64,000 nt of DNA from Paragonimus westermani (taxonomy: Eukaryota; Platyhelminthes; Trematoda; Plagiorchiida; Troglotrematidae): positions 267,226-331,225 of the forward strand of contig QNGE01000299.1 of the NCBI GenBank assembly GCA_008508345.1, written 5' to 3'. The notes under the pieces are model-generated. The model searched no databases and was not told the origin of the DNA. It saw only the letters and a list, made by a program, of their open reading frames with translations. Below, in pieces: positions 1,976-63,200 of this stretch. The position numbers and the translations under genes were made by a program. Position 1 is the stretch's first letter. Each line of letters starts with the position of its first letter.

Positions 1976-2149
1976 TTGTAATTTTATCAAACATTACCGC
2001 ACAAGTTCCAATCTCTTCGATCGCCTTTTTGTGATGTTTTTTGGACTTCGAATATAGTCCCGTTAATCCGACCGTTAGAACAAGGGTTATTTGAACTGTC
2101 GAGTATACGTTACCAGGTGAATTGTCCTAAATCGCCAGAATCGGTTTAA

Positions 2150-2440
2150 CAATTGACCATCACTCACATTTGATCACAGCGTTCGCATTCAGATAGACTT
2201 TCCAGCCAGCCTCTTTCGAAAAGAAGCACTAGACTCGAGTTTTGCTCTCATTAGAGCTCGTCAGCAGTGCATATCCTTGCCACGGCCGGGATATTAACTC
2301 GGGTCTTTCAATCACGAGGCAACCGTGTTGACCACTGAGCCAATGACCTCACATTGGGCACGACCGAATTATCGAATCTGAACGCCCAACCACTTTCGCT
2401 TGTGAACAATGATCAGGCTGGCCGATCGTCTCGAATAATA
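2150..2440 (-). mobile_element. tRNA-derived hammerhead SINE, copy 1 (nearly full length)
   Basis: Read on the minus strand, this copy has four parts. They are a head of about 80 bp, a tRNA-like region (box A-like TGGCTCAGTGG, degraded box B), a hammerhead-like block, and a tail with the family sequence GTGAGTGATGGTCAA. It matches the copies at 25.9 kb and 47.6 kb over almost its full length with scattered substitutions. SINEs are non-autonomous and would depend on a LINE or PLE enzyme for copying. The partner is unknown here. Confidence 0.8.
2226..2270 (-). ncRNA. Hammerhead ribozyme in SINE copy 1, core-mutated
   Basis: The 45-nt block has the family layout. Stem I is GCACTG/TAGTGC with one G-T wobble. 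It is followed by CTGACGA, a 5-bp stem II with loop AATG, and a palindromic stem III ACTCGAGT ending in C17. The GAA that should follow stem II reads AAA, a change of the core G12, which is normally needed for cleavage. It is therefore probably inactive. The match of all other parts argues it was once functional. Confidence 0.75.
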
Positions 2441-4937
2441 AACTATCAATGCATTGTTAAATTCGGATCATCTGGAGCACTTGATCGCGTGTATCCACTG
2501 AGTACATAATGCACGGTCGAGGAAAGCCCAATAGAATCCAGATTGGAGAACCCACCGTATCTGTAATCTCAGAATCTCCACCAAGCTTCGAAGTTTTTCG
2601 AATGGGTCTCCATCTGTCAAACGTACGGCTGATGATGGATTGTGTGTTACCGCTATGTGTTACCCCCCAAACCCAACCTCTGGACAAGCAAACGGTCAGT
2701 CACCCAGTAATGCTCATGAAATTTTTAATCCTAATGGCGGATTTATGACTTTAGGTGAGACCTAACTGTGAAAAGTCAGGGCTTCGGCTGGATTCGAATC
2801 TGCGGCAGACACAGCACAATTTGTCTTCTCATTCTTATGTTTCTAGGGATTAGGCTAGAATTGATTATATTTGTGCTGTTTATTATAATCGCAGTAAGTT
2901 TGGGCTGTGAAAGCTACGCAGTAATCTGGCCCAGGAGAAGAGCTATTACGCGGGGTGAAAGGGCACATAAAACTTACGTTCTTCCAGAACCTTCTACTCC
3001 GTCAGTTCTCAAGACACACTGAGGCAATAAGAATTGTTAGTTGCCCAAGACCAGCATAAGCTACGTAGAAGAAGGCTTGAGTTACAGCAGCCCACAAACA
3101 CCTCGAACGAGAAGTTGTTTTAACAAGACCGAATGAACGCGACGAGGTGGGAACATTTCACTCACTATCCCAATCCGGCCAGGTGAGTAACTTTGTCAGG
3201 ACGCTGGAAGAGTCACTCAGGTTACTAATACTGGGTATAGATCTATCAAAACTCTAGATCGGATCATTTAATGGGTCGCCCTGGGCGATTTGTTACTTTC
3301 TCATCCCACTCCCATCAGTTTTGAAGCAAAAGTACACCAAGTTTTTAGTAAGTCCGTCTTCGATCAAACGAAACTTGTCGAACTTGGTAACTACATGAGC
3401 GCAGGTCGATGTTGATGTTTATGAATGTGTGAACAAAAACTGAGTCTGCCAAGGAAGTTTTCACTAAGTCAAACCTTTTGGTAAGTCTAACGAATACATT
3501 TTCGGGTTATATCTGTTAGGGCTATCATGATTCAAAATGAGTTGCTTAAATTATTTGATTAAGTCCATTCAGTGATGAGAAGCCAAATTTACTTGATGCT
3601 TAAATTCAGTCGCTTATATTCCTTGGTAGAACGCCGGATTCCGTTTCAGAATAACTTGTATAAACAAGAAATTCTTGAAAAATCACTGATTCGAACTAAA
3701 TTTTGATTAAGTTATAGATCTTATTTAAAAATCGAGAAATAATTGCAACTATCTACTTGTTATGAATCACTTTCTACCAACGAATATCGGATAACTTTGC
3801 ATTGCTGCTGTCGACAACATCAAATTTGATGACATTCAGGTCTTTTCTGACAAGGCATAATGCACCGTTATCAACAAAGATAAATTTACTTAGTGCGACG
3901 CATCTCAGACGTAACATAATAAGCTCGTGGGAAATTTTTAATGAGGCGCAGATGAGCTCAAAAATTTAACTTTGCCCATTTAGGGTATAACAGAAAGTGT
4001 GTGGTTTATAAACAGTAATCATTAAGTATGGAGTTCTTTGAAAATGTCTACTTGTCTTCCGAACTAGTCATGGTGATAGCATTCCAAACAGATCTTCAAA
4101 ACACTGCTAGTGTTTATCAAGTTGATTTAAAGTTCACCGGCTTTATGTGGGTGAGAGGACGCAATTCACTGGGATGAAGATTTCATTTAAGTGTTTAACT
4201 GTTTGTGACCAAAATATTTCAAAAACTCCATGAATGAAAGCTAGAGACCTCTGTACTCATGTTTTTATGATGAAAAGTGTAGAATTATGGTTCACAGAAT
4301 AAAAACAGACAAAAAAGCATAAACAACCGACCAAAAAAGTTGATAGAGACCGACTTTCTTTCAAGCCTTGGACGACAAAATTGCTTGTATGAAACTCCAC
4401 TAGTATGTTGTCGTATTGATTAACCAAAACAGCCGTAATTTAGAGTGTAGCTTGTTGGCTTGCTAACTGACGGGTATTCAAAAACCAGCAGTGTTTTAGG
4501 GCTGAATTTGCGATCTGTTTTTCCTGATAGTTGTCATTGTGATACTGCACAACGTAACCTCCCCGGAAAGATAATGTTTCGACGACAGGAAATTGTGACA
4601 AATTATTGGTGGCAATGCAGAGTGCTGAAAACCTCCAAGTTATCGCAGCTATACATGCTAGGGAATTATGAGCCTTCGTGGCTAGCATAAAAATGGCATT
4701 TGACCGAAAGGAATGGATTGCATTTGGTTCATTTTTTGTACTTGAGAAGAATCATGTGTATTTTCAGGATGTGCTTGAGAAAGTTGAGGATGTCACACTG
4801 ATAATACTCCATTTTTGTTTCAGCCCACCTTTTTCTCTACTGTTGAGTTGTCAACTCTAGCACTACGTTAAGGATATCGAGTTACGAGTTTCAAAAGGTC
4901 CCCACATAATTAACGATGAGTAACCGGGGATTTTGTC
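2441..4937. other. Anonymous DNA, no gene recognised
   Basis: About 2.5 kb without a supported gene. Paired open frames on both strands at 2.46-2.75 kb and 4.44-4.69 kb have no recognisable motifs. A box B-like string near 2.79 kb has no matching box A and does not fold into a tRNA by eye. Confidence 0.55.
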
Positions 4938-5200
4938 GATTTCAAGTTGAACACTACTCACATTTGAATGATGCCTTAGCATTTAAAGTGGTTTCCCAGT
5001 CAGAATCTTTCGGAAAAAAGGTTTTGCTAAGCATAGAGCTCACCAGCAATGCGCTTCCTTTTTACAACTAAGAATAAAACTCTGCCCACGTTTGCCATGG
5101 GGTAACCACGGTGACCAAGTGCATCACGGGATTCGCATTACGCAAGTCAGAATCAACACATAAGAACGTCCAACCACTTTCGTCTGAGTACTTATCCAGT
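4938..5200 (-). mobile_element. tRNA-derived hammerhead SINE, degraded copy
   Basis: The minus strand carries the family tail (GTGAGTAGTGTTCAACTTG), a worn hammerhead block around 5015-5060 with the core lost, a worn tRNA-like part and the start of the head (AAAGTGGTTGGACGTTC). The tail includes the fuller 3' end CCCCGGTTACTCATCG seen in the 26-kb copy, which helps define the family's 3' limit. It diverges clearly more than copy 1. Confidence 0.65.
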
Positions 5201-5267
5201 TCCCCACTGACAAGCATACATGCAACTGGTGAGCTGTAGAAAAAGTTTGAAAAATGGGGGTTTTGTG

Positions 5268-5345
5268 GTTCTCTTCGAAAATGCGGGTTGAAAAGTCTAC
5301 CTGAATGCGAAGATCCCAAGCAAATGTGAGTGATGTCCAACTTGA
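5268..5345 (+). mobile_element. SINE 3' fragment, inverted relative to its neighbour
   Basis: This plus-strand fragment covers the region after the hammerhead (CTCTTCGAAAATGCGGGTTG) through the tail (GCAAATGTGAGTGATG). It lies about 70 bp beyond the head of the minus-strand copy, giving an inverted, head-facing pair like the one at 25.5-26.2 kb. Confidence 0.6.
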
Positions 5346-6164
5346 CGTTCTCCAGTGAGCTTCTACTGATACCGTGTGCACACTATTCAGTATTATGTGC
5401 TTCACAAAAATTATCATGATCGTTGTGTATATCCCGTGCAGTGTTGAATTGTAATATGTAAAACTGCAACCTCCACCCATATGTTGCCTAATTATTAACA
5501 GTAGTATGCAACCCCTGCGCGTCATTATGGGGTATGTTATCTCGTCAAGATAACGTGCAAGAATATCTTTCTGTTTCGCTTCTAATCGAGGTATTACCTT
5601 ATAGTACTTGATGTACAACCGAGTTTAGTCTTTAATTAGTATAAACACACCCTTAAAAATTGTCACAACCTTTGCTTTTCCAAATCACATCAAGTCATTT
5701 TCTCGTGTTCTAGTAAAAAGTGACAAGACGATGATTGGATTCGCATTTTGCGATAATGTCTATCTCGCGAGAATTATAAACTGATCGATCTCATAAAGAT
5801 TAATATGCCATCCTAGTCAACCATAAGGCATTTATGTGAATAGGTTTTTGCTGAGATTGTGAACACGGAAACACATGTTGTTTTTGGGTTGGACGTGAAA
5901 GAAACAAAAGCGCCACAACAAACTTATGATGGGTCATTTCCACATGTTCTGCTTATTAATATCATCTAATAATTATTTACGAAATATTACCCATCTGCGG
6001 CGAATTTCAGTTGACATACATTAAGTCATATCCTCCACAAAGACAGTAACTTCTCTGATTTCCACTTAGAGGAAAGCCCTAGTCGGGGGATTATCGACTG
6101 AAGCCAACAGGAGAAATCGGGCACTCTGAACAGTATTCACAATAGAATGTGGCTGAGTGTTTAC
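5346..6164. other. Anonymous DNA, no gene recognised
   Basis: A 164-codon minus-strand frame (5124-5618) runs through this stretch, but its C-terminal half is antisense to the SINE fragments and it has no domain-like motif. I therefore do not call it a gene. Confidence 0.5.
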
Positions 6165-6345
6165 ATATGATGAATCAGCTGTGCTTAGTACGAGGTCAAT
6201 GGCACAGTGATGAACGCGGCTGCCTCATGAAAGCCTGGTTGGAGTTCAGATCGCGGCCGTGGCAATGATAAGCACTACGTACGAGCCCCAATGGAAATGT
6301 AGTGGTTCTTCTCGAAAGCATGTGATTGGAAAGTCTGAGAAAATG
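6165..6345 (+). mobile_element. tRNA-derived hammerhead SINE, 3'-truncated or degraded copy
   Basis: The plus strand has the family promoter region: box A-like TGGCACAGTGA at 6200-6210 and box B-like GTTCAGATCG at 6244-6253, then GGCCGTGGCAA. The stem I strand GCACTA is present at 6271. The core that follows is CGTACGA instead of CTGACGA, and stem II and the GAAA are scrambled. The ribozyme is dead in this copy. The family tail is not recognisable. Confidence 0.7.
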
Positions 6346-6546
6346 CAACGGGTACGACAAATTGCGTTTTTTAATCCATCTAAATAACAGGGTCACACGT
6401 ACTTTTTTCTCTGGAGTTCCTTATTTACCCTCTCTGTGTCTGCATAAAAGTGGTCTCGATTTTCAGACCAGAGTGATGTAAAACGTTTTCAATCAACAAC
6501 AGTAATCACTGTAACAAATGTAACAATGTAACAAAATGTAAGGAAA

Positions 6547-7897: not shown

Positions 7898-9131
7898 GTT
7901 TTCATGTTCTATCTGCTTTCTTCAAGACAAAATAGTCGAACGTATGCTTCTGTTCAGCTGTGTGACTATGATGCTCATGATTATGGTATCAGCATCAATT
8001 CCCCAAGTTATAGTCAAGTGGACGCGGCCACTTCTGTAATAATTCTACGCCTTTTAAATGAGTGACAATCCGAAGGATTGTTTGGTTATTTGGTTCCGTG
8101 ATAGAAATTTTCAGTTCTGTGAAGCACAATTCATGCTAACTACCACAACGAAAACCAGTCATTATGAAGCATTACATAAATCCACAAAAAAAGACCAGGT
8201 TTCATCCTAGAAAATAAATATCCACATATCTTGATTAATAAAACTAGTTGTGTGAAAATTTAAAATGTGATCAGAGACATTCTCGTCAATACCAACAAAT
8301 TTGCACACTTTTATTCTGCCATTGTTTTAGTGATACGTAGAAACAACATATTACTTTGAAAAACCCACCTTACCGCATTCGTTAGATGCTAATTAGTCGA
8401 CTTCCGTAGCCCAGGCTGTCTTTGAATGGTCAGCCATGATGAAAAACATCTCCGCTTATTTCGCTGCCACACAGTAGTAGTGTACCTACCTGCCAAGTTA
8501 TTTAAACCAAGGAAACTCAAGACTTTCTTATCACGTCGCAATAAGTACTGAATCATTGGTAACCACAATATCAACTAGGTCGGCCTAGTAAACCTTTTCA
8601 ACAAGAGATCAGAGAAACAGATTAATTACCGCACCAAGACTACAGTCACCAATCGGTGAACGACAGTTCCTTGTGCTCAAACATGTGGTTACGTATGTGG
8701 GCAAACAGTTTTGCTCATGTACAGCGAACAGTACACAGTGGGCGTGTTCGTGTAAGCGAATGTCCACAGGAAAGGGGACTGATGGAAAAGACAACAGGTA
8801 AACATGGTTCTCCTCCTGTTAAGCCTAACAATCGACATTGTCGACACTGACCAAGTTCATTTCCTAAAATTGGCCTACTACAACCAGAAATTATCATACG
8901 AAACCGGATAACCGCTAAAAATACCCCAAGGAATGTTGAAGTACTGGCAGTTTGGAACTGTCCAAGCGTTTTCAAAAATATTGCGATAGCTTCAACTAAT
9001 ATAGACAGCCTAGTTGTCATATTCGAGTACGAGGTAGAAATTTTATAGGTAACCATCAAACTCATAGTCTGAGTGGGATTTTTGTTGATACGAATTAAAC
9101 GCCCCTCATAAGTGCTTGCAGCTTTCACCTT
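7898..9131. other. Anonymous DNA, no gene recognised
   Basis: Open frames at 8.4-9.1 kb on both strands overlap each other and lack motifs. The first few hundred bases may be the rest of the PLE terminal repeat, but I cannot define its end. Confidence 0.5.
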
Positions 9132-9320
9132 GACATAAATACTTCAGTCAGCCTCTTTCAATCAGAAGTACTTCAGACTCGAGTTTTGTTCGCGTTGAAC
9201 CCGGTCAGCAGTCCACACCCTTACCATAACTAGAATCCGAAATTTGGCCGTTTTCATGAGGCAAATCAGTCAACTGCTGTGCAAGTGAACTCAAGTTGGA
9301 CACGGCTGAAATTTTTGGGA
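9132..9320 (-). mobile_element. tRNA-derived hammerhead SINE, degraded copy
   Basis: The minus strand shows the family order tRNA-like region, ribozyme block, then the region after it. The stem III palindrome and cleavage site (ACTCGAGTC) survive, but the core reads CTGACCG, the GAA reads AAA and stem I no longer pairs. The promoter boxes are worn. This is an old, inactive copy. Confidence 0.6.
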
Positions 9321-14839: not shown

Positions 14840-15700
14840 GTGAACAGCCTGCCGCAACAGGCCGCCAAATCACCACTTGCTACCGTTGCGGATTTGTCAG
14901 AGATGCAGAAAGCGATTAGACAACTGTGCAATAGGAAAGCTGCCAGCGTGGACGGATTGTCGGTTGAAATCCTGAGGAATGACGGATGGGCATTAGAACG
15001 CGTTTTGTTCCAGCTGGTTTACTTTACCTGGGAGCAGGAAGAAATGCCATGGGAATCCAAAGACGCTGTGATAGTGCTCATGTTTACAGGCCAGAATAGC
15101 CATCAATTGACCGACAGCTATAGGCACATTATTATGCTGAGCTGTGCAAGCAAAGTGCTTGTAAGAATCCTTCTGAATTGACTGAATACGGATGGTTTGG
15201 AGGCCAGTGTTTCAGAGGAGCAGTGTGGATTCCGGGCAAGTCACAGTACGATAGGCCTAGTGTTTGCTGCTCAGCAGATTTCGCAGAATTGACGGGAATG
15301 CAACCAGCTCCTATATACTGTCTGAGTGGACTTCACCAAAGCCTTCGAATCTGTGAACCACGTGGCGTTGTGGACTGTACTTGGTAAGTTCGGATGTCCA
15401 GCCGAGTTCGTCTATTCGATTAGAATGTTATATGAGAACATGAAGGCGAAGGTACAGTCGTATGAATCAACCTGTGAAGATTGTCACATTGTCGCCGGCA
15501 TGAAGCAAAGTTGTATCCTAGTCCCGATTCTGGGTTTATACTTGACTGGAATGCTGACAGTTGCTTTTCAGGACTCGACGGAAAACGGTGTTGGGAATAC
15601 CGGACGGATGAGTGCCTACTGAACATTCAACGTTTTGGTGCCTTAAACCGCAATGATGCGCAAGCTTCTGTTCTCATATAACAGGGGCAATGTCTCCACA
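14840..15700 (+). pseudogene. LINE reverse transcriptase remnant
   Basis: Several family blocks appear in order across three frames. At 14.9 kb, IRQLCNRKAASVDGLSVEIL is the K-A-GPDG-P-E block. From 15.06 kb there is the weapon-less thumb-side string SYRHIIMLSCASKVLVRILL. From 15215 follows EEQCGFRASHSTIG, then DFTKAFESVNHVALW from 15329, which includes the first catalytic Asp. GMKQSCILVP at 15497-15526 corresponds to G-KQGC-LAP. The next expected block, FADD with the two catalytic Asp residues, cannot be found; the sequence from 15.62 to 15.73 kb appears deleted or scrambled. The enzyme is inactive. Confidence 0.8.
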
Positions 15701-16230: not shown

Positions 16231-16961
16231 TTGGGTGGTACATAAGGGAGTCATCGGTGTCACAGGTCGTGGTGACAATAATATGGCGTTACGATGTGTG
16301 CAGCCGCGTACGCGCTGGCATTTTTTGGGCTGGTATCTCATCAACGTACTCATACTACACTGTAGGCTAAGAGAAGCCGAGTATGCCAGGGTCGAGTCAG
16401 TTATATCGGTTACATTCATTGTTTTCTCGTTCACATTAACCAAAGACTACCGTCGTTTAGAATTCATCTGTTCCCATGTTCAGAAACGTGGTTTTCTGTG
16501 GCCCTCTGCTTTTCCTCTTCTTCAGCTTTTTAATGTATAAGATTAATGTATTTTATGTTTTCCAGTCCAACCTTAAAGTTTGTTTTTCATCCAAATCCTT
16601 CCTGTAATCACTAACCTATACTCTTATACTGGACTATTTCTTGCATTATAATTTCGATAGTTTTCTTTTTAGTTTAAATGTTATCACCGGAGTCACTGTT
16701 TGGTTTCCCGGAGATAGGGGCTTTAGTTTCTAGGTAGCCTATCAGTTGGCCAACTAGCACTGGTTGGTTGAGCACAAACGTCTCACTCGCCCGCCTTCTG
16801 GTGTTATTCCTTCGGATACATGATGTGTGAATGGAAGCACAAGTCTTGCAGCACAAGCCATTTGTAGTGATAGTTATGTGCATGCATCCTTTGGTTCCGG
16901 TCACTGTGACAGGTTGATCCGAAACGGATCCTGCTAACCATGATCATTCGGTCACACATGT
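16231..16961. other. LINE 3' flank, anonymous
   Basis: The first part may be LINE 3' untranslated sequence (pyrimidine-rich at 16.49-16.67 kb). No other feature is recognised. Confidence 0.4.
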
Positions 16962-17130
16962 TGTGATGTTACTGACTTTGTGGTTAACACGCTAGTCACA
17001 AGCACATAGGTCGGATTACAAACTCCGGTTCGGAGAATGATATACGTTACTGATAAGCCAAAATAAGGCAGAACCTCGAGTCTGATGCCTATTTTGAAAG
17101 TGGGCTAGCCGAAAGGCTCAGCTGAATACA
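16962..17130 (+). mobile_element. tRNA-derived hammerhead SINE, old divergent copy
   Basis: The family order can still be traced: GTGGTTAACACG (box A region), ACAAACTCCGG (box B region), CTGATAA, a GCC/GGC stem II, AGAACCTCGAGTC (stem III palindrome CTCGAG and C17), then TATTTTGAAAGTGGGCTAGC. The core has changed bases and stem I does not pair well. It is probably an older subfamily member. Confidence 0.55.
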
Positions 17131-17679
17131 AAGCCTGTGAACAGACAACAGCGGTGTTCAATTTAAAATCTGAAGTGGTCTTCTGTTTGCTAGAGAAATC
17201 GCGGTCAAACTTCTCAGAACCACAAATACATTGAAACCAGTGGTTATGGAAGTTGGAACTACATCTGACGTTGATGTTACTGCCGTACTCTTGATTCGTT
17301 TCAAATAGCACCCAAATGCCGTCCAGTTAACGTAAATCTCATGGTACCTCGTGATTGGTAGCAAACGGTAAGGCACAGCGGTGTGATGAACAGCTATTTA
17401 CTCATCCTTACGCAGTTAGAATTAATGAAGTTTCGTCAAGACGTGACATAATTCCGAACAGAAAACTTACTGGGTGAGTGTATTAGTTGATGGGAAGCTT
17501 GAAAGGCTCAGTACCTTTTAGGCAGTTCATCAATTAGCAAGACACATTGCGAGATGCAATCATTCCGTCCATTTTCCTTAGTCGACTGCGTAAACCTTTC
17601 GGTCACACAGGGCATGACGACGAAACAGTAAAATGGTCAGAAGTCACATGGTTCGATCAGAGTTGAAATAAACGGTTTC
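17131..17679. other. Anonymous DNA beyond the PLE-A 3' end
   Basis: It lies downstream of PLE-A on the minus strand and could hold its 3' terminal repeat. No match to the other PLE terminal repeats in the window was seen. Confidence 0.4.
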
Positions 17680-19195: not shown

Positions 19196-19593
19196 ACTCT
19201 GACTGTGTCCTGATTATATTATGCGCCTTGCAACGACAGATGCGGGGTGCAGTCCATCGGCACCCATACAGGCTCCTGACGTTTCTAATTGCGTCTCTAG
19301 CCATTTGGGTACATGCTCCTTGATACTAACAGCTAGTTGTTGGTTTGCCTCCCTATGTAGTTCATACTGCAGCTACACGAGTATTTGTATAAACAGTGGG
19401 ATGTGACAGACGTACACTGTTTGTTCGTAACCGGGACGACTGGTAGAGTTCTCGTTCGTTGTGTTACACACAGCTTTGCAACATTATAAGTCATGGATAC
19501 AGCCGCTGTTAGACTTTTCCTAATCATTGTTGACCAGCTGCCCCCTAAGAATGGGAGTTCTAAATACACCGTCCTCTTCGGTGCCGTCGTCAC
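19060..19593 (-). pseudogene. PLE-B: GIY-YIG endonuclease remnant
   Basis: The minus-strand frame 19593-19333 reads KRTVYLELPFLGG (linker), MTYNVAKLCVTQRTR, then HCLYKYSCSCSMNYIGRQT. The last piece is the GIY-YIG core (Y-C-C----YIG-T). After a disrupted stretch, DAFSVIFRSNRKRIL and FAEALAIKRHSLPLCVQKQF (19191-19060) give the C-terminal end, with one stop between them. Together they are about two thirds of a PLE endonuclease domain; the reverse transcriptase is missing. The 5' end abuts, within about 60 bp, an inverted second copy of the same C-terminus. Confidence 0.8.
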
Positions 19594-19654
19594 TTCTACA
19601 GTTGGGATGACGGCTTTGCCGTAATTTTTAATAAATCACAGGGGGTACCCGTTT

Positions 19655-21300: not shown

Positions 21301-21869
21301 AGTGTCCGCACGAACTTCTTCCGGGCACAGAGGTCAGGGTTGCGCAATCGGATGCTGATGGCTTCGGCAACGGTCAACATTCGGAATCTCACCATTTTTG
21401 ATCGATTCCTTGGCACTCAGTAGACAAACCGGAAAGCATCTTTCTTACTGACAGAATGATTGCAGTCGGTCAAGTGAGCAACAGTCGCGCCTGAAACCGT
21501 TTTAATCACACCACTGTTCAATAACGCAGGATGATGTTTACGCACTCTGTTAGACAACCGCCTCCTAGTAAGACCAATATATGATGCATGACACGAGCAA
21601 ACAAATGAGTACACACAATAGTTGGTTGTACGACATGGAGGTTTGACTTTGAGTTTTGACATGATAGCGGGTGTTGAACGGAAACCCACACACAGTTGAA
21701 CGGCAAGGTAGGTCGTTTCGACTGACTTTCTGAACTTTCTTGCGATAACTTCGGCTATGGGATCTCCCTTGAAAGGAGGACTAATGAACGCAAACCTCTT
21801 ATTCACAGAGGGTGGCTTAAGTTTCAACTCTACGGCCCGCATCGCCTTCTGAATGAAACGCACTGGCAA
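21250..21869 (-). pseudogene. PLE-C: GIY-YIG endonuclease domain, one in-frame stop
   Basis: This is the best-preserved protein domain in the window. The frame 21869-21417 starts with a linker (FISPPFKGDPIAEVIARKF, typical of PLEs), then CVYSFVCSCHASYIGLTRRR (residues 85-104). That is the GIY-YIG core with its Cys pair and YIG, followed by RVRKHHP where E-H is usual. GATVAHLTDCNHSVSKKDAF is the H-L---H-- segment. After a TGA at the end of RFVY, the same frame continues VPRNRSKMVRFRMLTVAEAI, then LRNPDLCARKKFV and LNLLWP, the normal C-terminus. Only one stop breaks about 200 codons. The reverse transcriptase is missing upstream, where an inverted copy of the 3' end begins. Known role: target-site cutting for PLE insertion. 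Confidence 0.88.
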
Positions 21870-21949
21870 AATGGCTTGTCGGTCTGCTCGAACCCATCAG
21901 GTTGCAGCTAGCAAAACACAGTCTCCGGGATACGTTCCATTTCATTGAC

Positions 21950-25100: not shown

Positions 25101-25505
25101 TCTTATCTTAGTAAAATATGCACTCACATAGGAAGTTTTCCAAATATTGCCCTTCCGCTTTATGAAATGGTTCGATATCCTTCTTCCGAAAGGACGCTGC
25201 GTGCTTTATCAGCGATTCGACGGCGGACTACTGTGGTAATAAGCAATTCTCTATTGGTTAATGATCCACCGAACTCATTTCATGCACCGTGCTATACTTC
25301 CGTTTCATCGTCCGTTGTACGGCTTCTGTCGAGAAACTGGACTTTTAACCTGGACTCGAAAACAGCCTGTTGCATCAAAAGACAGTTTCTATATTTACCA
25401 TATGTCCGACTATCGATGAAACTGTCCGTCATACTCTTCCCATTTCGTTTCTTCTGGATAGCGTGCACCAGTACTTCTTTACATTTGAGACATTTTGGTA
25501 ATATC
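22151..25505. other. Anonymous DNA, no gene recognised
   Basis: Over 3 kb without a supported gene. Plus- and minus-strand frames of 60-120 codons (for example 23993-23643 minus and 25167-25529 plus) have no recognisable motif. The latter runs into a SINE tail. Confidence 0.5.
23220..23272. repeat. Two-part hairpin
   Basis: TCACAAA (23220-23226) pairs with TTTGTGA (23266-23272), and inside it TCCCACGA (23230-23237) pairs exactly with TCGTGGGA (23248-23255). The loop is ATGTTCCTCC. Two nested perfect stems with an internal loop suggest a folded RNA or the remnant of a small inverted-repeat transposon. No gene is adjacent. Confidence 0.55.
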
Positions 25506-25800
25506 TGTTTTCAAGTTGAACACTACTAACACTTGATCACAGTCTTCGCATTCAGCTAGACTTTCCAGCCGGCCTCTTCCAAAGAAATCACTAGACTTGA
25601 GTTTCGCTCTCATTAGAACTTGTCAGTAGTGTATAACCTTGGCCCGACCGGGATTAGAACGTCGGTCATACTTCCATGAGGTAACCGTGTTGACTACTGT
25701 CTAGTTGGTCTCACATCAGGCACGATCGAATAACCACATCTGAACGCCCAACCACCTTCACTTGTGAGTAACAGTCAGATCGTCCAATCGTCTCGATAGG
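25506..25800 (-). mobile_element. tRNA-derived hammerhead SINE, copy 2 (near full length)
   Basis: On the minus strand it carries head (CGAGACGATTGGACG), tRNA-like part, hammerhead block and tail (GTGTTCAACTTGAAAACAG). The head extends like that of copy 1 at 2.4 kb. It faces the copy at 25.93 kb head to head, about 130 bp apart, giving a large imperfect palindrome. Confidence 0.8.
25588..25632 (-). ncRNA. Hammerhead ribozyme in SINE copy 2, core-mutated
   Basis: Same 45-nt layout as the intact copies. Stem I keeps five of six pairs, stem II GTTCT/AGAGC pairs with one wobble, GAAA is intact and C17 is present. The core reads CTGACAA instead of CTGACGA, so the critical G8 is A. Stem III has also lost its inner C-G pair. 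Cleavage is not expected. Confidence 0.75.
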
Positions 25801-25861: not shown

Positions 25862-25912
25862 CTGATGTTCAAACTGAACTCAATCAAATCCCTGACTACT
25901 TACCAGTAATAT
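25862..25912 (+). mobile_element. SINE tail fragment directly upstream of a full SINE
   Basis: GATGTTCAAACTGAACTCAA, then CAAATCCCTGACTAC and CCAGTAAT match the family tail (GGTCAACTTGAAACTAAACC, AAATCCCCGACTACTCATC). It is on the same strand as the next copy and about 20 bp before its head. The pair thus looks like the end of one unit followed by the start of the next. Confidence 0.6.
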
Positions 25913-26009
25913 CTATTTTGGTAAACTGCAAATTACTGATCATTGCTCATAAGCGAGAGTGGTTGAGCGTTCAGATTTGATGATTCGGTCGTGCCTAATG
26001 TGAGGTCAA

Positions 26010-26020
26010 TGGCGCAGTGG
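26010..26020 (+). promoter_or_regulatory. Pol III box A of the SINE
   Basis: TGGCGCAGTGG fits the eukaryotic tRNA box A consensus TRGYNNARNNG at every fixed position. Box A lies about 80 bp inside the repeat. A Pol III start about 12-20 bp upstream of it would therefore leave out most of the head. Confidence 0.75.
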
Positions 26021-26054
26021 TTAACACGGTTGCCTCATGATTGGAATGTCCGGA

Positions 26055-26064
26055 GTTCAAATCC
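26055..26064 (+). promoter_or_regulatory. Pol III box B of the SINE
   Basis: GTTCAAATCC fits the box B consensus GWTCRANNC and lies about 35 bp after box A, normal tRNA spacing. The 45-nt ribozyme starts 19 bp further on, so any Pol III transcript would contain it. Confidence 0.75.
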
Positions 26065-26082
26065 CGGCCGTGGCAAGGATAT

Positions 26083-26127
26083 GCACTACTGACGAGCTCT
26101 AATGAGAGCGAAACTCGAGTCTAGTGC
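26083..26127 (+). ncRNA. Hammerhead ribozyme, type I, intact core (SINE copy 3)
   Basis: Parts in order: stem I GCACTA (26083-26088); core CTGACGA (26089-26095); stem II GCTCT-AATG-AGAGC (26096-26109); GAA (26110-26112); stem III ACTC/GAGT (26113-26120), a perfect palindrome with no loop; C17 (26121); stem I TAGTGC (26122-26127). All invariant core bases (CUGANGA, GAA, A15.1-U16.1, H17) are present and all helices pair. Predicted cut after C26121. Stem III is too short to close in a single molecule, so two copies would probably pair through the palindrome, as known for other short-stem-III hammerheads. Established parallel: the Sm-alpha repeats of schistosomes. Confidence 0.88.
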
Positions 26128-26243
26128 TTCTTTTCGAAAGAGGCTGGCTGCAAAGTCTATCTGAATGCGAACGCTGCGATCAAATGTGAGTGATGGTCAA
26201 CTTGAAACTAAACCAAATCCCCGACTACTCATCAGTAATTGTA

Positions 26244-27894
26244 TAACCGCTTTTCGGTTTTAATTGTGCATAGATATCAATACCACGAATGAAAAAAGTC
26301 GTTGTTGTCAGGTGTTTAGAACACTTCAGCAGTTTCTTACCTGACAGTGGGCATCAAGACGCGTTACAAACATTAGTTCGAGCCCTCGCAGCATTAGCTA
26401 GCGCAAGCTAGTAACCAGAAATGGACTGCATCCACCCACACTGACGGGATACAAGCAAGCCTTAACTCAAAGACGAATATCTGTGTCCTTTTCTGCCGAA
26501 GCCTACTGACCGATATACAAGTGTTTTGATATGCTCCTTTCAAATTGGTTCAGGCGTGACAACCGTAGAATTTGTTTATAACAAACCCGGATAATCATTA
26601 ATTATGCTTGACACTATTAGACAACATTAGTAAGCACGTAAAGAACGCTTCTTACTACTAAATTACTTTTACGTCTGTAGTGAAAAGTGTCAACTACATT
26701 CTGTACTGACTAGTTTAAACCGTTCACATATTCTGAAAGCGTTGCATCTTTCTCTCGGAAACTGATGGTTCACATGTTTCTGGCCAGCTCTAGTTGAGGC
26801 TGGAATGGTTGTGTTTTGCAATGCTAATACTGCTTTTGGTTTGCGATTATCACTATCCCCTCCCGCCTCCATCACCAGCAAGCCTTACTGAATCGCCACC
26901 CTCTACGCAACTAGGGGATTGAACAGCTGTGTTTGGCTTTCGAATGGAGGACATCGTCCGTGTCCTGGTATGGCTGTGTGTGTGTGTGCGTGTCATTGCG
27001 AGTCCAAAGGCACAGCTTTGCAAATGATTTGCAATGCAAATTGCCCATGACCACCGGAATCGGATTTTATATTGTGTGTTTAGACTGATGCAAACGCATC
27101 CCAGTCAGTTGTCTTGCAATGTGTTGAGAAGTAGCATCGAAAGCAAGAAACCAAACACTATCAGTGTTGTCACATGGATACGATATACTTAAGACTGTAT
27201 GTTGTGAAAGTCTGATTAGCTCCCTCTCTCACGATAGGAATGGATGACAAGGTATGTGCGAAGGCAGGATTAGATGTGAAGCTCTGTGAACAACTGGCAG
27301 ATGAAAAAGTAGACAGACATGCTGAGAGCAAGACGCACAAGTAAAAAAACCGACACAAGTACTAGGTAAAATTCCACTAAAAGTATATGATTAGCTTTAT
27401 GGCTGTGGTCACTTATCAGATTTTCCTACGCAACGTACACAAACGCCAAGTCACTTCGTGAACCGCCCATATTTGAATCCCGTTAATATCTACCAGCCAC
27501 ATCAAGCCTGAGCTACGCCGTAGAAACAATTCACAAACAAGTGACTATCCTCTAATATGAAAGCACTAGAAATAAACTGCTTTTTTTCAGAACTCATCAT
27601 TTATGTCTGTCCAACTGAACCGTTAACTCGTGTTCTGATGAGAGCAACCATGTTGAACACAACACCAGTAACATCACATCAGATGTGACCAACTTATCTT
27701 GTTTAAAACAGTCGTAGGTGATTAGGAATACTGCTTTGTTTCAGTGATTCTTTTCGAAAGAGTTGAGCTAAAATGTGTGCGAAAAATATGCAAATCCTTT
27801 TGGTGCTCAATCTAGAGTGACAAGGTCTCGACCACTTATCTGTGAAGTAAAAGCCAGTGATGTAAGAAGTCTATTACGCTCAGAAATATCCATT
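26244..27894. other. Anonymous DNA with a short TG run
   Basis: No gene recognised. A short (TG)n run is at about 26.98 kb. Minus-strand frames near 26.7-26.9 kb and 27.2-27.4 kb show no motif. Confidence 0.5.
27746..27800 (+). mobile_element. Possible SINE 3' fragment
   Basis: GATTCTTTTCGAAAGAGTTG resembles the family string GCTTCTTTTCGAAAGAGGCT that follows the ribozyme. After it the match is weak. Confidence 0.3.
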
Positions 27895-32000: not shown

Positions 32001-33590
32001 GTAGGGGACTTAAATAGCAGTTGTGATAAATAAAACTATGCTCGGTTTCGTGCATAGAGACGCGCAGTTTAGTCGCGGAAACTAGGATTTCTTGCTTTAA
32101 GTAAGCCGAAGTGTGAACAGCAAGTATTTCGTGAGTCAACACTTGACATCTAGATGGCGGAAGATCGGAAGGAAATGGTCAAAACATCCAAAAACCGAGG
32201 TTCAGCGCACTGCATGTTCATTTGATTTACAATGAAATGCAACATGCATAAATCTGCTGGCTTTAGAGTGAACATTATTTGTAATGAATACAATCTTTGT
32301 ATTCAAACCAACGAAACGTTGGACAGTGCACGACGTTAATTCTATGGATTCTCCTCAGTTGAGCAGTTCAGCTTCTAATACATCCAATTACAGTTACAAG
32401 GACAGTTGCCCCCAAATCTGATGGTCTGTTAAACTGAGTATTGTTGAAATCCGAACGCTATTTCGCGAATGTATGGTAAGTCGGTTGTGTGTATTGCGAA
32501 CTCAATAATCTCGCGATCAACACGGTTGATTCTTAGGAAGATGGATGGGAATTAACATTCCGGAGGTGGTGAGTATACGTACTGCTATCGAACCTGAACG
32601 AAAACGAAAGTCAAGTCCGGAGTTTCTCTTCCACAAAGACTAACACAATGTGTGTGTGTGTTTATTACATACTCACCAATATTTCTCCAATACACAACTA
32701 ACATACTAAACGCTATACAGGTATATTGGGGGAACAAAACAAGATTAATTGCTGTCCACATATTGCTATTTTTTTGAGAATGCCAAAATGGACAAAGTGG
32801 ACGGAAGTAAAGTAGTCTCTAGAAATTACCAACACATCTATATATTTCAAACCGATTCAATGGTTTTTTCCTTTCACACTTCACCTCGGATGCTGATGAC
32901 CATGCTGTGATTAATTAGGCCTTATTCTCGCAGATTTTGACCTAAGGGCGTATGACTGCATGTAACTTCAATGAGTCTAGGCTTATTACGCTCATCGCAA
33001 ACTAGAGATCATGAACTTGTGAAGTAGGGATTTTCTACCTAAAAATCGTCGTTAACATCGTATCGGGATATCCCAATCCAGTCTGGTATTAGTCGGCAGA
33101 TTTACCAATTCTTTAAGAGAAAGGATAAAAGTAGCATTCATACGAACACAACTTTCAGTGTGCTTGTAGACATCCTTCTCAGAAATGTCATGGCATATTT
33201 CTTATCCGTCAAAGTCCGGCTAAAGAATGTGACAAAATATTTACAAAAATGAAGTACCGAGAAGTGGTAAGCGAGAGAGAATCTTCAGTCAAAGGAAATC
33301 TGAGAGAAGTAATCCAATTTCTAGACGTTCTCCACTCATGTATCTTGTTCGAGTATAGTCAGAAAACACGTTATAGTTTTTGAATAAACCATTATAATCT
33401 GTATTTAGCTAATTGTTCACCGTAACGTGCGACCATGAATGTTATGAAGTCCACTCCTGTCGAATCAAATAGTTCATTAATACCCATATGACGCTAACAA
33501 AAATCATAAGAAACATTTTTTCACGGAAAACAGTAAACGGAGCAGCCACTCTGCATTTAAATTACTATCTGTGTGAGTGCCTAAAGTGGA
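29036..33590. other. Anonymous DNA, no gene recognised
   Basis: Overlapping frames on both strands at 30.5-31.2 kb (up to 135 codons) contradict each other and carry no motif. A short (TG)n run is at about 32.65 kb. No repeat family member is seen. Confidence 0.5.
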
Positions 33591-36205: not shown

Positions 36206-36987
36206 TCATCTTACAGCAGCGGCGACGTTTTAAAAAGCCTCCAATTTGCACAATTTCTAAGCTCCCCAGGTGATTTTGCACTCTTCAGATGAAAGTGAAG
36301 CCCACCTTGCGTTTGGAAAATTCACTAAAGCATTCTCCCGACTGAAAAACCCTACATTCTTACACAGAGGAAGCTTGTAGTTTACAACGTCGATTTCAAT
36401 GCATAATATAGAATACCACCTACACTGTAAGAGCTTCGCCTAGGTGAAATTGACTGGTATTATTATATTATGCAAAACACAACTCCATTATTGACCTATT
36501 CCTGTTAAAGTAAGATTTTCTTCGAAGTTAGTGCAATGGATAATTATTAGCTGGCGAACCATTTGTAGGACGTTTGGTATCAAACAATTTTATGGTCACC
36601 TACTTTGACCGCACCTTCCGTATAACCGACAATACAATTTCCCCACAATAAATGGTTCCATTAAACATGATTAATTACATAGACGTGTAAATCAATTGCG
36701 CGTTTCCACTGTTTTGTAGCAGAACATTTCTTCTTATACTTCAGTGACAGCCAACATTATTTCGGGACTAGGTATTTGAGCAAAACTGCCGACATCACTG
36801 GATCCATCAGTTCAGATACCTAAAACGATCCTGCAGAAAAGTGAATACGCAGTTAGCTTTTCGTGTTTCTTAAAGCGATGCGTATTCTTCCTTCTCCATT
36901 TTCTCAGCACAAATGAACAGTGTTCACTGCCATCCTATTGCTAGTTTATGCACAATTCTAGTGTTAACGAAGATCACCAGACTCGCC

Positions 36988-37041
36988 AGTAGTATACTAT
37001 TGTTGTATAACAGGCAGTTTCGTTGTTAGTAGTATACTACT
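36988..37041. repeat. Repeated palindrome AGTAGTATACTACT
   Basis: The 14-bp string at 37028-37041 is a perfect palindrome. Its first 12 bases occur again at 36988-36999, 40 bp away. Such paired palindromes can be protein-binding sites or traces of a small mobile element; there is no gene beside them. Confidence 0.45.
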
Positions 37042-37445
37042 CGTGAGTAGAATGTTATTCGCAGGCAACATTCAGGAACAAAAGAGCAGGAAGAAGAGGG
37101 ACAGAAAAAACATTGGAATATTTTATGCGTTGTGTGAAAACTTCTTTTAAGGCAAGTGATAACTTACTCTCACCCATTGTGTGCGGATGCATAGCGGCCG
37201 TGCAAATGAGTGTACTTGTTTGTGGTTCAATTGTTTGCATGACTTATGCGGAAAATTGCGTACTAGATGAATTCATAGTCTAGGCGTTCATGCGGTCACA
37301 ACACTACCATCTAACAACTATGCTCGCGACTTCTTGAAAAACGCGTGGGCTTACGACGGTGCTGTTGTATACTCCATCACATTGTTTGTTTGTGCACCAG
37401 TTTTTCAACTTTAAGGAAAAGGTGAAATGATCACTTGACAGCACT

Positions 37446-40500: not shown

Positions 40501-41193
40501 TCTCTTTCACAGTCATTCTGTTGCTGGTCATCTGAAACTGAAACAATCTTCCGATTTATCTCTCCATCCTAAACAGTCCAAAACTAGCCCATATTTATAT
40601 GAGTTTTCTCAGCTTCACTTAATCCGTAAAATTCCTGCGAATCATATGGACAAATGATTAAACATCGAAGAGTGCGACCGAAATGACATTATAACTTACA
40701 TTCGCCCGCAGCCTGTGTAACTTCGGCCAAAAATGGGCAACCAGTTGGAACGAAAACAAGTTGTGTATAACAATTTTCACAAAAATTCTGAGAAAATGAC
40801 ACAAGCAACACTGGTAGATCATTTACCACAGATACTGAAGAGCACATACCCAAATGAGTTCACAAAATGATCACACAACTTGGCACTGTAATCACAAGAA
40901 TTCGCACACTCCAAACTTAACCGACACAAAGACACATCTTGTAAAATGGTTAAAACATGTAGCCAACCTCAACATCCTTCATTATAATGCACCATCATAA
41001 CTGTGAGAAAGTCACGATTAGCCGACTATGTACAGTTCATCGTTCAACTGCTTTTTATCTGTTTATTTTTGTAGGAATTACAAGTCTGATGTCTTGAACT
41101 TCCAATGTGATGCTGTTACCTCAGACCCGCCTGCTGATTAGTCAACGAAATGAATGCGATCCATTGAAAAAGTTAAAGTTTCACAAACTTTTT
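37530..41193. other. Anonymous DNA, no gene recognised
   Basis: Several frames of 60-110 codons (37602-37931 minus, 39132-39401 plus) show no motif. No repeat family member is recognised. Confidence 0.5.
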
Positions 41194-41345
41194 TAAAACC
41201 TGAACATCACTCACAAGTGATCGCCACTGTCGTATTTCCATAAGTCTTTCAATTAATCCCTTTTGAATCGAGGCCATAAACTACAGTTCCATTATTAGTA
41301 ATGCTTGTTAGCAGTGTATATCCTTCTTACATGTAGAATTCAGCC
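41194..41345 (-). mobile_element. tRNA-derived hammerhead SINE, old 3' remnant
   Basis: Read on the minus strand, GAAGGATATACACTG, CTAACAA and the final CACTTGTGAGTGATGTTC follow the family order from stem I to the tail. The ribozyme core and stem II are badly worn. This is among the oldest copies. Confidence 0.5.
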
Positions 41346-47551: not shown

Positions 47552-47735
47552 ATACATTGCGTGGCCAGAGTGCAAATCCCGGTCGTGGCAAGGATATGCA
47601 CTACTGACGAGCTCTAATAAGAGCGAAACTCGAGTCTAGTGCTTCTTTTCAAGAAAAAGGCTGGCTGGAAGGTCTATCTGAATGCAAAGGCTGCGATCAG
47701 ATGTGAGTGATGTTCAACTTGAAATAAACTCTCCC
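47552..47735 (+). mobile_element. tRNA-derived hammerhead SINE, copy 4 (5' truncated)
   Basis: It starts within the tRNA-like part, just before box B (GTGCAAATCCCGGTCGTGGC), and runs through the hammerhead to the tail GTGATGTTCAACTTGAAA. Box A and the head are missing, so it cannot drive its own Pol III transcription. Apart from the truncation it is close to copy 3. The missing 5' end fits incomplete reverse transcription. Confidence 0.85.
47598..47642 (+). ncRNA. Hammerhead ribozyme, type I, intact core (SINE copy 4)
   Basis: Stem I GCACTA (47598-47603) with TAGTGC (47637-47642); core CTGACGA (47604-47610); stem II GCTCT-AATA-AGAGC (47611-47624); GAA (47625-47627); stem III palindrome ACTCGAGT (47628-47635); C17 at 47636. 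It differs from the 26-kb ribozyme only in the stem II loop (AATA for AATG), a position where change is tolerated. Every core base is kept. Confidence 0.87.
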
Positions 47736-50711: not shown

Positions 50712-51010
50712 GCAATTAATTCACAAATATGATTATCGCCTAGCGTTTAGACGCGATAGACCGATCGTGCATGGGATACTATCAATGACGCAATGACCCA
50801 TACGATTACCTCATGAAAACATAAGCCACAGTTCACAGTTTCGTTGTAGCATTTGTATACATTACTGGTGAGATATAACGAGAGTGAAACCTGAATCTAG
50901 CACCCGTCTTTGAAGTTGGTCGATTAAGAAGACTATCTTGACGCCAGCAGATTATCACATTTGAGGAACATTAAATTTACACCAACTCAATCCCTCATTA
51001 CTTGTCAGCA
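50712..51010 (+). mobile_element. tRNA-derived hammerhead SINE, old near full-length copy
   Basis: The order head (GATCGTGCATGGGATACTAT), worn box A (TGACGCAATGA), ribozyme block (CTGGTGA, then GAGAGTGAAACCTGAATCTA) and tail (CCAACTCAATCCCTCATTAC) is preserved with many changes. GAAAC survives, but the CTGANGA core and stem I do not. It spans the same ~300 bp as copy 3, which supports the inferred unit length. Confidence 0.6.
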
Positions 51011-55480: not shown

Positions 55481-56280
55481 GCGCGCCTACACCAAGTTGT
55501 CGGGCTAACGGTGTTGCGTCTAGGCTAACACATACGCGGTGAGCACCGAGTACGTGGGTGTATTCTTTTGACGTAAAATCCACCTGGTGAACACTTTCTG
55601 TAAGCCGGTCGTCCGGCTATGGGTTCATGGGCAATCCACTCCGATTGGTAAAGGATTCGGTCGTCGTCGACCACACAGCCAGGCAGACCGGGTGCTAGAA
55701 CGATAGCCATCCGATTACCAGTCTGACAGCTGCCGTGATGGCTGAAGGCAGGAATGGAACACCCAGGGTAAGCGATCGGCCGCGATCTGCAAGCCTGAGA
55801 AAATACTGTCCGGGGTAGGTGGCAAACCATTGCAAGTCCACTATGACCTTGCGTGATTGAGGCGTAACTCAGCCGAGACAATCCGTCTGATGTGAGTGAC
55901 TAAGGGATCTGCTGGCTACTGCGCTAACAGAACGGTACGACTGAGGACAAACTGACTGACGCCAACCACATTCCTGCACTATGGCTGAGCTAGATGACGG
56001 TGGGCATTGAGAGTGGTTGGTCAAATATGAAAATGTGTTAGTCTGTGATGAACCGGCCAATTGCTGGTTACACATCATCTATCCGCCCCGTTCCATCCTT
56101 CTCTTCTAGAGGTCTCTGCCGAAGAATTGAACCAATCACCGATTCTAGTTGGTTTCCGGTTTCCCCACGTAGTTCTCTTCACTGCTGTTTTATGGAAGTT
56201 TTTTTGAACCATTTCACACGCCTCATACATGTAGACGATACCGCTGTCGCAAACGCCAGTAAAATCCGTCCCAAAAACGC
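55481..56280 (-). repeat. 800-bp inverted repeat, left arm
   Basis: Exact-length reverse partner of 63201-64000, with only a few substitutions and no indel seen. It is GC-richer than its surroundings. On the minus strand it holds a 118-codon frame (55881-55525: LAMVCHLPRTVFSQACRSRP, then DDDRILYQSEWIAHEP) that I do not recognise. The inner edge is sharp at CCAAAAACGC (56280). Confidence 0.92.
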
Positions 56281-56539
56281 TTATATCTTGTTTCTCGTGA
56301 AAATGCATATACTTAAGTTGAATACGGAGGTTCCGTGTTGTTTTTGTCTCGGAATCGATAACTCACGTAATCAGTGTTAAGTGTATTATTCCCAAAGTCA
56401 TTTCTCATTCGCTGATACGCTTCACTTTTATTCCAAATTCACCTGTCTAAGCTAACAGGATCACGGACGCTCTGCGCTTACCACTGCGCTTGTCTCTAGT
56501 CCAGATTCCCACTCACATCGAAGCACATTAGGAACATAT

Positions 56540-57990
56540 ACGAGGTGCAATGCATCAGTGCGGTAATCGCCGGAATGTTCCATCTAGCAGTGAGTGTAAC
56601 TCGGTCCTCAGGGCTACTCACTCGGGACTTTGGAGGCAAGTACGAAAGGATCGCGGGGCCTACTGGACACAGCGCGCAATCGAAGTGGAACCGGTCTATG
56701 CTATCAGGAACTCTCGGAAGCTTTCCTATCTCATCCGAGCAACTGGTGACAAGAGGCCTGATGTGAGTGAGATAACCTGCGAATCCAACTGTGAGCCTAT
56801 TCATAACCTGCAACGACGTTTAGGACGTTGGGCTGAACACTTTCGGTAGCATTTCAACTTTTCACCTCCGCCACTGACCACGCCTTCTGGCTGTCTCTGT
56901 GTTCATTGATCTGTTGTTTCGTTTCTCTCAAAGACAGAAGTCTCAGTTGAGATCAACTTTCTGAGATATCATAAGGCACTCGGTCCAGACGAACTCCCTC
57001 CTACCCTTAATTGGAGAGCTGAGGGCTTCGCACCAAAAACTCTGCATCAATAGTTGTTCAAAATGTAGGTTAGCTAACATAATTCACATTTTCAACAAGG
57101 GCTCACGCAGTTCATATGTAAATCACAGAGAGGTTAGTCGAATTTCTGTTGCGTCATGCTTCTTCGTAGTCACCGTGTTTCGTGGACTAAACGCGAAGAA
57201 CATGGTCGTGAGCTGTGTGTTCATAGAGGGCTTACATCTTCTTAAACAGACTGGAGGCTTCAGTTCGCCAGTTTGGTATCGCCTTTGTACCTACTAAGTG
57301 CAAGGTGCTGTTGCAAGATTACCATGACTCTGTGGTTCCTCTTACACGTGGTGGTGAAACGTTGAAAGTAATCGAGGAGTTTATGCACCTTAAAGATTGT
57401 CTCAGCACTGGTGGAATGTCTGATGAGATCACCATTCACATAGCAAAGGCTCTGAAGACGTTCACTAACTTACGCCGTCTGTGATGTAGGCATGATCTGT
57501 CTTTCTGCGTGTCAGCAACGATGAAGTTCGCCGAAGTATCTACTGAACAAACCATAAGCGTACTGATCTTTTCTCACAGACTTCGTTGGCCTAGTAACAT
57601 TCTACGAATGTCAAAACATCGCCTACCACATCACGCCTTGTTTGCGAGTGGTAGGTTGCACTGGAAGCGGTAACCTGGTGACCAACATATGACTTTGGTT
57701 CAGAGTGTGATAGCACTCACTTTGAAACTTATTCCAGTAAGGCGCCCTCGGCTTCCTGGCTAGGGTCGGAGGGACAACGAACACCATTGGTTGGGGACGT
57801 TATCTGATGTGGCGAGGAACCGAGGTCAACGTCGTTCGTGTTGCGAGTGTTTGCGTGTATTGTCGTAATTTTTTTCTCTATCCCTCTACACTTTTCCCCT
57901 CTTCATATCACCTTTTTCTTCCCATATGGTAGCATATTTGCCACTCCGTGTGACTTTTACATGTCAAATATACCTATTTGACTTTTGAAT
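56540..57990 (+). pseudogene. LINE-3: RTE-like LINE remnant with internal deletions
   Basis: Family blocks in order: RQVRKDRGAYWTQRAIEVEP, RKLSYLIRATGDKRPDVSE and RRLGRWAEHFR (56.63-56.85 kb, the pre-RT linker). Next come RYHKALGPDELPP (56.96 kb), IIHIFNKGSRSSYVNHREVS with ISVASCF (57.08-57.16 kb, first RT blocks), and PTKCKVLLQDYHDSVVPLTR with KDCLSTGGMSD (57.28-57.43 kb, after the palm). RVSNDEVRRSIY and the tail from 57.51 kb close the set. The whole catalytic palm, with all three Asp residues, is deleted near 57.2-57.3 kb. It lies on the same strand as the 13-16 kb LINE but is closer to fluke-type consensus. Confidence 0.83.
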
Positions 57991-63100: not shown

Positions 63101-63200
63101 TCAGCACCAAAATGAGTGGGTGAATGTTTAACGTGTTGGGTGGACTAGGGAAGCGACCTTAACTTCATGGATATGTACGAGCAAGGGATCGAAGGAATGT
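60136..63200. other. Anonymous DNA, no gene recognised
   Basis: About 3 kb inside the inverted repeat. Frames at 61.23-61.56 kb (minus) and 62.15-62.39 kb (both strands) show no motif. Confidence 0.5.

Follow-up and report, generated by a model that had tools for sequence, protein, structure and literature searches.

A type I hammerhead ribozyme sequence in a dispersed SINE-like repeat with Pol III boxes

The segment 26083-26127 of a 64-kb stretch of DNA (the window, meaning the whole stretch analysed) is a complete type I hammerhead sequence that is predicted to cut itself. It lies in a dispersed repeat which, in the same copy, carries consensus Pol III boxes A and B. We consider that this repeat is probably a non-autonomous, tRNA-headed, SINE-like retroposon of the Sm-alpha or non-LTR retrozyme kind.

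Structure of the hammerhead ribozyme

Read 5′ to 3′, the ribozyme of copy c1 (26083-26127, plus strand) consists of the first strand of stem I (GCACUA), the core segment CUGACGA, the first strand of stem II (GCUCU), the loop AAUG, the second strand of stem II (AGAGC), the core segment GAA, the palindrome ACUCGAGU of stem III, a C, and the second strand of stem I (UAGUGC). Stem I has 6 bp and stem II 5 bp; in its hairpin form, stem III has 2 bp and a UCGA loop. The predicted cleavage base, C26121, is preceded by GU. An earlier reading of the sequence alone (the sequence-only reading) had listed every invariant hammerhead base, these two stems and a palindromic stem III, all of which are present, and the cut that it predicted after C26121 is likewise supported.

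The covariance-model search that it had proposed also bore it out. Rfam model RF00163 matched the c1 site at 34.7 bits (E 6.2e-5; gathering score 34) and a second intact hammerhead, 47598-47642 on the plus strand in copy c3, at 35.3 bits. Both sites have the CUGANGA...GAAA...UH core and three stems of the RF00163 class and are open at stem I. A strict descriptor (fixed core plus minimum stem lengths, both strands) found these same two sites in the window. The HH9 model (RF02275) matched a longer region of c1, 26071-26144, at 35.3 bits (E 3.5e-5). Four window sites matched this model at E ≤ 0.0044, all under its gathering score of 52, including the minus-strand sites 2209-2282 and 25571-25644 in the core-mutated copies c2 and c4. 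In the predicted folds of both c1 and c3, stem I continues outwards and includes an internal loop; this extension may supply loop-loop contacts.

Table 1. Copies of the repeat in the window and features of copy c1
Feature	Position	Strand	Remarks
Repeat element, copy c1	25936..26245	+	Homology to copies on both strands; 5′ end possibly about 25 bp further upstream, 3′ end uncertain
Box A, TGGCGCAGTGG	26010..26020	+	11/11 to TRGYNNARNGG
Box B, GTTCAAATC	26055..26063	+	9/9 to GWTCRANNC
Type I hammerhead ribozyme, c1	26083..26127	+	RF00163 match and strict descriptor; cut after C26121 predicted
Ribozyme with predicted outer stem I extension and internal loop	26071..26144	+	HH9 match, predicted fold
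Palindromic stem III, 8 nt, ACTCGAGT	26113..26120	+	
Fragment resembling the 3′ tail of the element, directly upstream of c1	25863..25910	+	
Copy c2, core broken (G of GAAA to A)	2133..2408	-	
Copy c3, 5′-truncated, intact hammerhead 47598-47642	47554..47735	+	Alignment to element begins after box A
Copy c4, head to head with c1, core broken (second G of CUGANGA to A)	25495..25770	-	
Decayed copy, ribozyme partly deleted	4934..5191	-	
Decayed 5′-truncated copy, head to head with 4934-5191	5183..5345	+	
Decayed copy, ribozyme partly deleted	6134..6398	+	
Decayed copy, palindromic stem III kept	9074..9312	-	
Decayed copy, CTCGAGT kept	16932..17177	+	
Decayed copy	32472..32633	+	
Decayed copy	41189..41331	-	
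Decayed copy	50742..50981	+	
5′ piece of element without ribozyme	27638..27707	-	E 1.3e-5
3′ piece of element without ribozyme core, weak	27743..27815	+	E 0.011, fails inclusion threshold

The repeat family in the window

The sequence around the ribozyme was used as query in BLAST and profile searches; these found 14 dispersed matches in the 64-kb window, down to E 0.011 for the weakest (Table 1). Twelve of the 14 extend into the ribozyme region, and in two of these twelve (26083 and 47598) the core is intact, that is, all 11 scored core bases are present. Besides c1, the copies reaching this region are one intact copy, two with a mutated core, and eight that are decayed or truncated; the sequence-only reading had named none of these. 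The longest pairwise homologies between copies span 265-295 bp, and a tail common to some copies would bring the unit to about 310-330 bp. The 310-bp unit proposed earlier is thus roughly right in length; comparison of the copies gave no clean 5′ or 3′ end.

The fragment directly upstream of c1 is 48 bp long and has 82% identity to the tail of c1 itself, 328 bp apart; it could be the remainder of a 5′-truncated dimer or an older neighbour. Six copies were checked for target-site duplications and none was convincing: the 16 nt matched at the flanks of c1 represent the tail-like fragment, and the two 10-nt flank matches at copy 5191-4934 are shorter than the longest match in shuffled sequence (11). 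Within the 64 kb, Tandem Repeats Finder reported no array built from this unit, and no intact head-to-tail dimer was found.

Two pairs of copies are inverted head to head, c4 (minus) with 25944-26214 of c1 (plus) and 4934-5191 (minus) with 5183-5345 (plus); therefore a read-through transcript could form a long hairpin. The segment 27638-27815 holds two pieces of the element, first an inverted one from its 5′ part and then one from its 3′ part in direct orientation, a layout like that of twin priming in LINE-driven insertion.

Pol III boxes and a possible tRNA-like head

The Pol III promoter consensus is TRGYNNARNGG for box A and GWTCRANNC for box B. Both are matched perfectly in c1, with 19 nt between box B and the ribozyme start, the spacing given in the sequence-only reading. 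Among the 14 matches, c1 alone combines both perfect boxes with an intact ribozyme; c2 has a full box A and 7/9 of box B, and in the remaining matches the boxes are degraded or absent.

ARAGORN was used to look for tRNA genes and found none at default settings. With relaxed settings on five element heads it gave differing anticodons in four and nothing in the fifth. A minus-strand match to the Rfam Plastid-ycf2 leader model, which we take to be a tRNA-like family, was found at 26007-26076 (E 1.2). A tRNA origin of the element head is suggested by boxes A and B together with this weak match. Of the description of the repeat as a tRNA-derived SINE, the dispersal of the copies and the Pol III boxes are supported; no consistent parent tRNA emerged, with no default ARAGORN call and inconsistent anticodons.

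Conservation of the ribozyme among copies

Leave-one-out identity was 108/132 (0.82) in the 11 core columns, 241/341 (0.71) at stem positions and 1657/2315 (0.72) outside the ribozyme. Comparison of core with rest gave p 0.027 by column permutation, and 0.020 for all matches and 0.050 for the older ones by Fisher's test on cells. This favours the SINE-like retroposon, but the support is weak because the copies are not independent. In the four youngest copies the core (42/44) was no better conserved than the stems (107/112) and slightly above the 3′ part (288/320). The expectation that the core would be better conserved than the rest of the SINE was therefore borne out only marginally across the window copies. 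Among the 12 copies that extend into the ribozyme, four (c1, c2, c3 and 9312-9074) retain the palindrome ACTCGAGT, and a fifth (16932) has it as CTCGAGT.

Covariation was examined in an alignment of 10 copies, two of the 12 being excluded for a partly deleted ribozyme. Paired cells made up 75.4%; the shuffles gave 72.8%, and 54/500 of them were as high. Double changes were seen in five pairs, compared with 3.8 for the shuffles (161/500). The covariation score of the 10 copies was not significant, being reached in 38/500 shuffles. We therefore rejected covariation (38/500, 54/500) as proof of selection on the stems. The hammerhead structure exceeded slid versions of itself in both paired cells and covariation score, a comparison biased in its favour because the structure was taken from c1. 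The window data are compatible both with selection on cleavage and with its absence.

These results bear on a rival reading, in which the SINE family is dead and its ribozyme a passive fossil: the copies would descend from a source element that was formerly active, and the motif would no longer have any function in this genome. The loss of core bases in 10 of the 12 copies, the lack of an intact head-to-tail dimer in the window, a core identity barely above that of the rest (and no better than the stems in the youngest copies) and the non-significant covariation all agree with it. Post-insertion decay is, however, expected of SINE copies whether or not their source is active, and c1 and the 5′-truncated c3, 21 kb away, share an identical core, identical stems I and II and the palindrome. 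We regard a fossil as rather unlikely.

Folding and dimer pairing

The earlier proposal to fold the RNA gave a mixed outcome: the minimum-energy fold of the c1 dimer is a double hammerhead, but that of the monomer is not a hammerhead (-13.7 versus -8.8 kcal/mol). The monomer misfold says little, because the RF00163 consensus behaves likewise (-12.8 versus -7.8 kcal/mol for its hammerhead, with a 4-bp stem II) and the energy model is one without loop-loop contacts. The exact double hammerhead was the cofold minimum for two c1 or two c3 molecules (-34.1 kcal/mol each, compared with 2 × -13.7 for the monomers) and for two c2 molecules (-33.7 kcal/mol). For c4, in which the palindrome is broken, the cofold minimum was a different structure.

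Shuffles of the inner six nucleotides of stem III gave the double-hammerhead fold in 24/200 sequences, but the real dimer energy gain (-6.7) was hardly larger than the shuffle mean (-6.0). The RF00163 consensus, which is also palindromic, forms a double hammerhead at -33.7 against a dimer minimum of -34.9, 1.2 kcal/mol apart. The palindrome thus permits a double hammerhead without setting the element apart, because the RF00163 consensus nearly does the same; as a special trait, the double-hammerhead cofold is weakened by both results. Nor was thermodynamic stability accepted as proof of a ribozyme, no z-score being decisive: -0.13 (c1), -1.80 (c3), 0.28 (c2) and -0.81 (c4) for the 74-nt regions, -1.64 for the 45-nt core of c1 and -1.85 for the whole element (100 shuffles).

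Dimer-assisted cleavage is plausible on these models. Pairing of two hammerheads may aid cleavage, because stem III has 2 bp as a hairpin and would form an 8-bp palindromic duplex between molecules. A bolder form of this reading would make the repeat a hammerhead SINE family of a non-schistosome host, with a ribozyme independent of that of Sm-alpha and cleavage dependent on the palindromic stem III pairing two RNAs, so that processing would rise with copy number and expression. We hold this version to be unlikely. The palindromic stem III does offer a simple test of dimer-dependent cleavage.

Proposed mechanism and alternative explanations

On the preferred explanation, a SINE-like retroposon with a hammerhead, Pol III would transcribe the element from its internal boxes A and B and the RNA would cut itself after C26121. 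The 5′ product would carry boxes A and B and end in a 2′,3′-cyclic phosphate, and the 3′ product would begin with a 5′-OH. Two cuts in tandem or read-through transcripts would release unit-length RNA, which might be circularised by a host RNA ligase and copied by a LINE-type reverse transcriptase.

This explanation accommodates the RF00163 matches above the gathering score at two places, the perfect boxes of c1, the extension of 12/14 matches into the ribozyme region, the core identity, the double-hammerhead cofolds of c1 and c3 pairs and the palindrome kept in 4/12 copies. It has precedents in Sm-alpha and Sj-alpha, which are SINE-like (PMC2770079), and in animal repeats some 300 bp long (PMC7229834). 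Set against it are the intact core in 2/12 copies, the union of ribozyme and both perfect boxes in c1 only of 14, the non-significant covariation, the monomer minimum, the z-scores of -1.80 to 0.28 in the 74-nt regions of the four best copies, the dimer energy gain close to that of the shuffles, and the negative results for target-site duplications, a tandem intact dimer and a default-setting tRNA.

Alternatively, the element could be a strict non-LTR retrozyme, in which tandem monomers are read through, cut twice and circularised and the Pol III boxes are incidental. Its unit size and type I ribozyme fit those described for animal retrozymes in PMC7229834, and the tail-like fragment adjoins c1 upstream at a spacing of 328 bp. 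At 48 bp and 82% identity, however, this fragment is unlike one recent dimer insertion; head-to-tail monomers each with a hammerhead were not found within the 64-kb window, nor was a unit array by Tandem Repeats Finder, and both boxes are perfect in c1. We judge a strict retrozyme improbable. Finally, that the hammerhead is a chance match of a short motif has a negligible probability: although the RF00163 scores barely exceed the gathering score, chance is rejected at the sequence level because the strict descriptor found two sites in the real window and one in total in 200 dinucleotide-shuffled windows, and the motif is common to homologous copies of the element.

Other sequences searched and other features of the window

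Five viral contigs with a degenerate core pattern were considered as related loci and rejected: none (0/5) contained a hammerhead at the Rfam gathering score, and one alone (L001) could be aligned to the element, the aligned part being the search pattern. A longer pattern gave no matches, and a stricter one gave none in bacterial and archaeal genome contigs.

Pfam searches of 10 window ORFs returned only matches under the curated cut-offs. Among these was an RVT_1-like fragment at 15326-15619 (E 0.00095), a possible LINE relic. Two minus-strand ORFs, 21417-21896 and 19333-19635, may resemble the C-terminal region of Penelope-like elements; neither had a supporting Pfam match. No homologous protein or confirmed viral-contig relative was found for ORF 21417-21893, and none for ORF 56532-56846. 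Near-identical translated ORFs run in opposite directions at 55525-56380 and 63128-63917, which points to an inverted repeat or a transposon copy. A hairpin at 36981-37048 had a weak mir-137 match (25.2 bits versus 56.7; E 0.77) and is probably a chance match.

Comparison with known elements

All three stems of the window ribozyme differ in sequence from the RF00163 consensus, which we take to be mainly schistosome. The window has a GC content of about 42%, and that of Schistosoma is lower. The ribozyme shares with HH9 (RF02275) the core, the GAGCUC...GAGC edges of stem II and a similar outer stem I; unlike HH9, presumably a single intronic motif of amniotes, the window motif is a repeat, and c1 scores under the HH9 gathering score.

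Hammerheads are described in Sm-alpha and Sj-alpha, the SINE-like elements of schistosomes, with about 38,500 candidates in S. mansoni and about 5,000 in S. japonicum, and 2,342 of 2,368 tRNA-Gln-TTG-like sequences of S. mansoni were classed as SINEs, similar to Sm-alpha (PMC2770079). A full tRNA-Gln is mentioned in schistosome hammerhead repeats (PMC4918200), and the Sm-alpha unit of S. mansoni is 335 bp (PMC8490949). S. haematobium has 16 hammerhead-like small RNA clusters, seven of which overlap SINE/tRNA elements (PMC5993326), and elements of the Sm-alpha/Sj-alpha type are reported from S. haematobium and S. rodhaini as well. Beyond schistosomes, hammerheads occur in interspersed repeats of mosquito, sea anemone, frog and fungus (PMC3088659). 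Animal non-LTR retrozymes with type I hammerheads include those of platyhelminths; type I hammerheads in which stem III is 2 bp long and capped by a tetraloop are likened to invertebrate ones, and the animal repeats are about 300 bp long (PMC7229834). Non-LTR retrozymes could count as a novel SINE family (PMC7761336).

The sequence-only reading was thus correct in recalling hammerheads in Sm-alpha and other animal retroelements (PMC2770079, PMC7229834). It overstated the novelty of joining a tRNA to a hammerhead, since Sm-alpha, which is tRNA-Gln-like, and Sj-alpha are in print with their hammerheads (PMC2770079, PMC4918200). The combination of a tRNA-derived SINE and a type I hammerhead is already published for schistosomes, and the kind of element is known because the Sm-alpha/Sj-alpha and retrozyme literature describes such elements; our finding contributes a further example and no new principle. 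In the literature searched, no tRNA-headed hammerhead SINE outside schistosomes was found among the matches listed. If the host is not a schistosome, such SINEs would be older or more widespread than the schistosome cases, and a comparison across lineages might tell whether a need of retroposition for the ribozyme is what preserves it.

With the metazoan non-LTR retrozymes of cnidarians, mussels and axolotl the element shares a repeat of about 300 bp, a type I hammerhead, a weak stem III and a lack of coding capacity (PMC7229834). Those retrozymes are described as tandem copies (PMC7229834), whereas the window copies are mostly single; a tRNA-like head is not mentioned for them in the available text, schistosome repeats excepted (PMC4918200), whereas c1 has boxes A and B. 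With Sm-alpha and Sj-alpha, compared by description, the element has in common a short dispersed repeat, a type I hammerhead, a high copy number and, as far as boxes A and B suggest it, tRNA similarity (PMC2770079, PMC8490949, PMC5993326). The best reading is a probable tRNA-headed SINE with an embedded type I hammerhead, which may be functionally like Sm-alpha.
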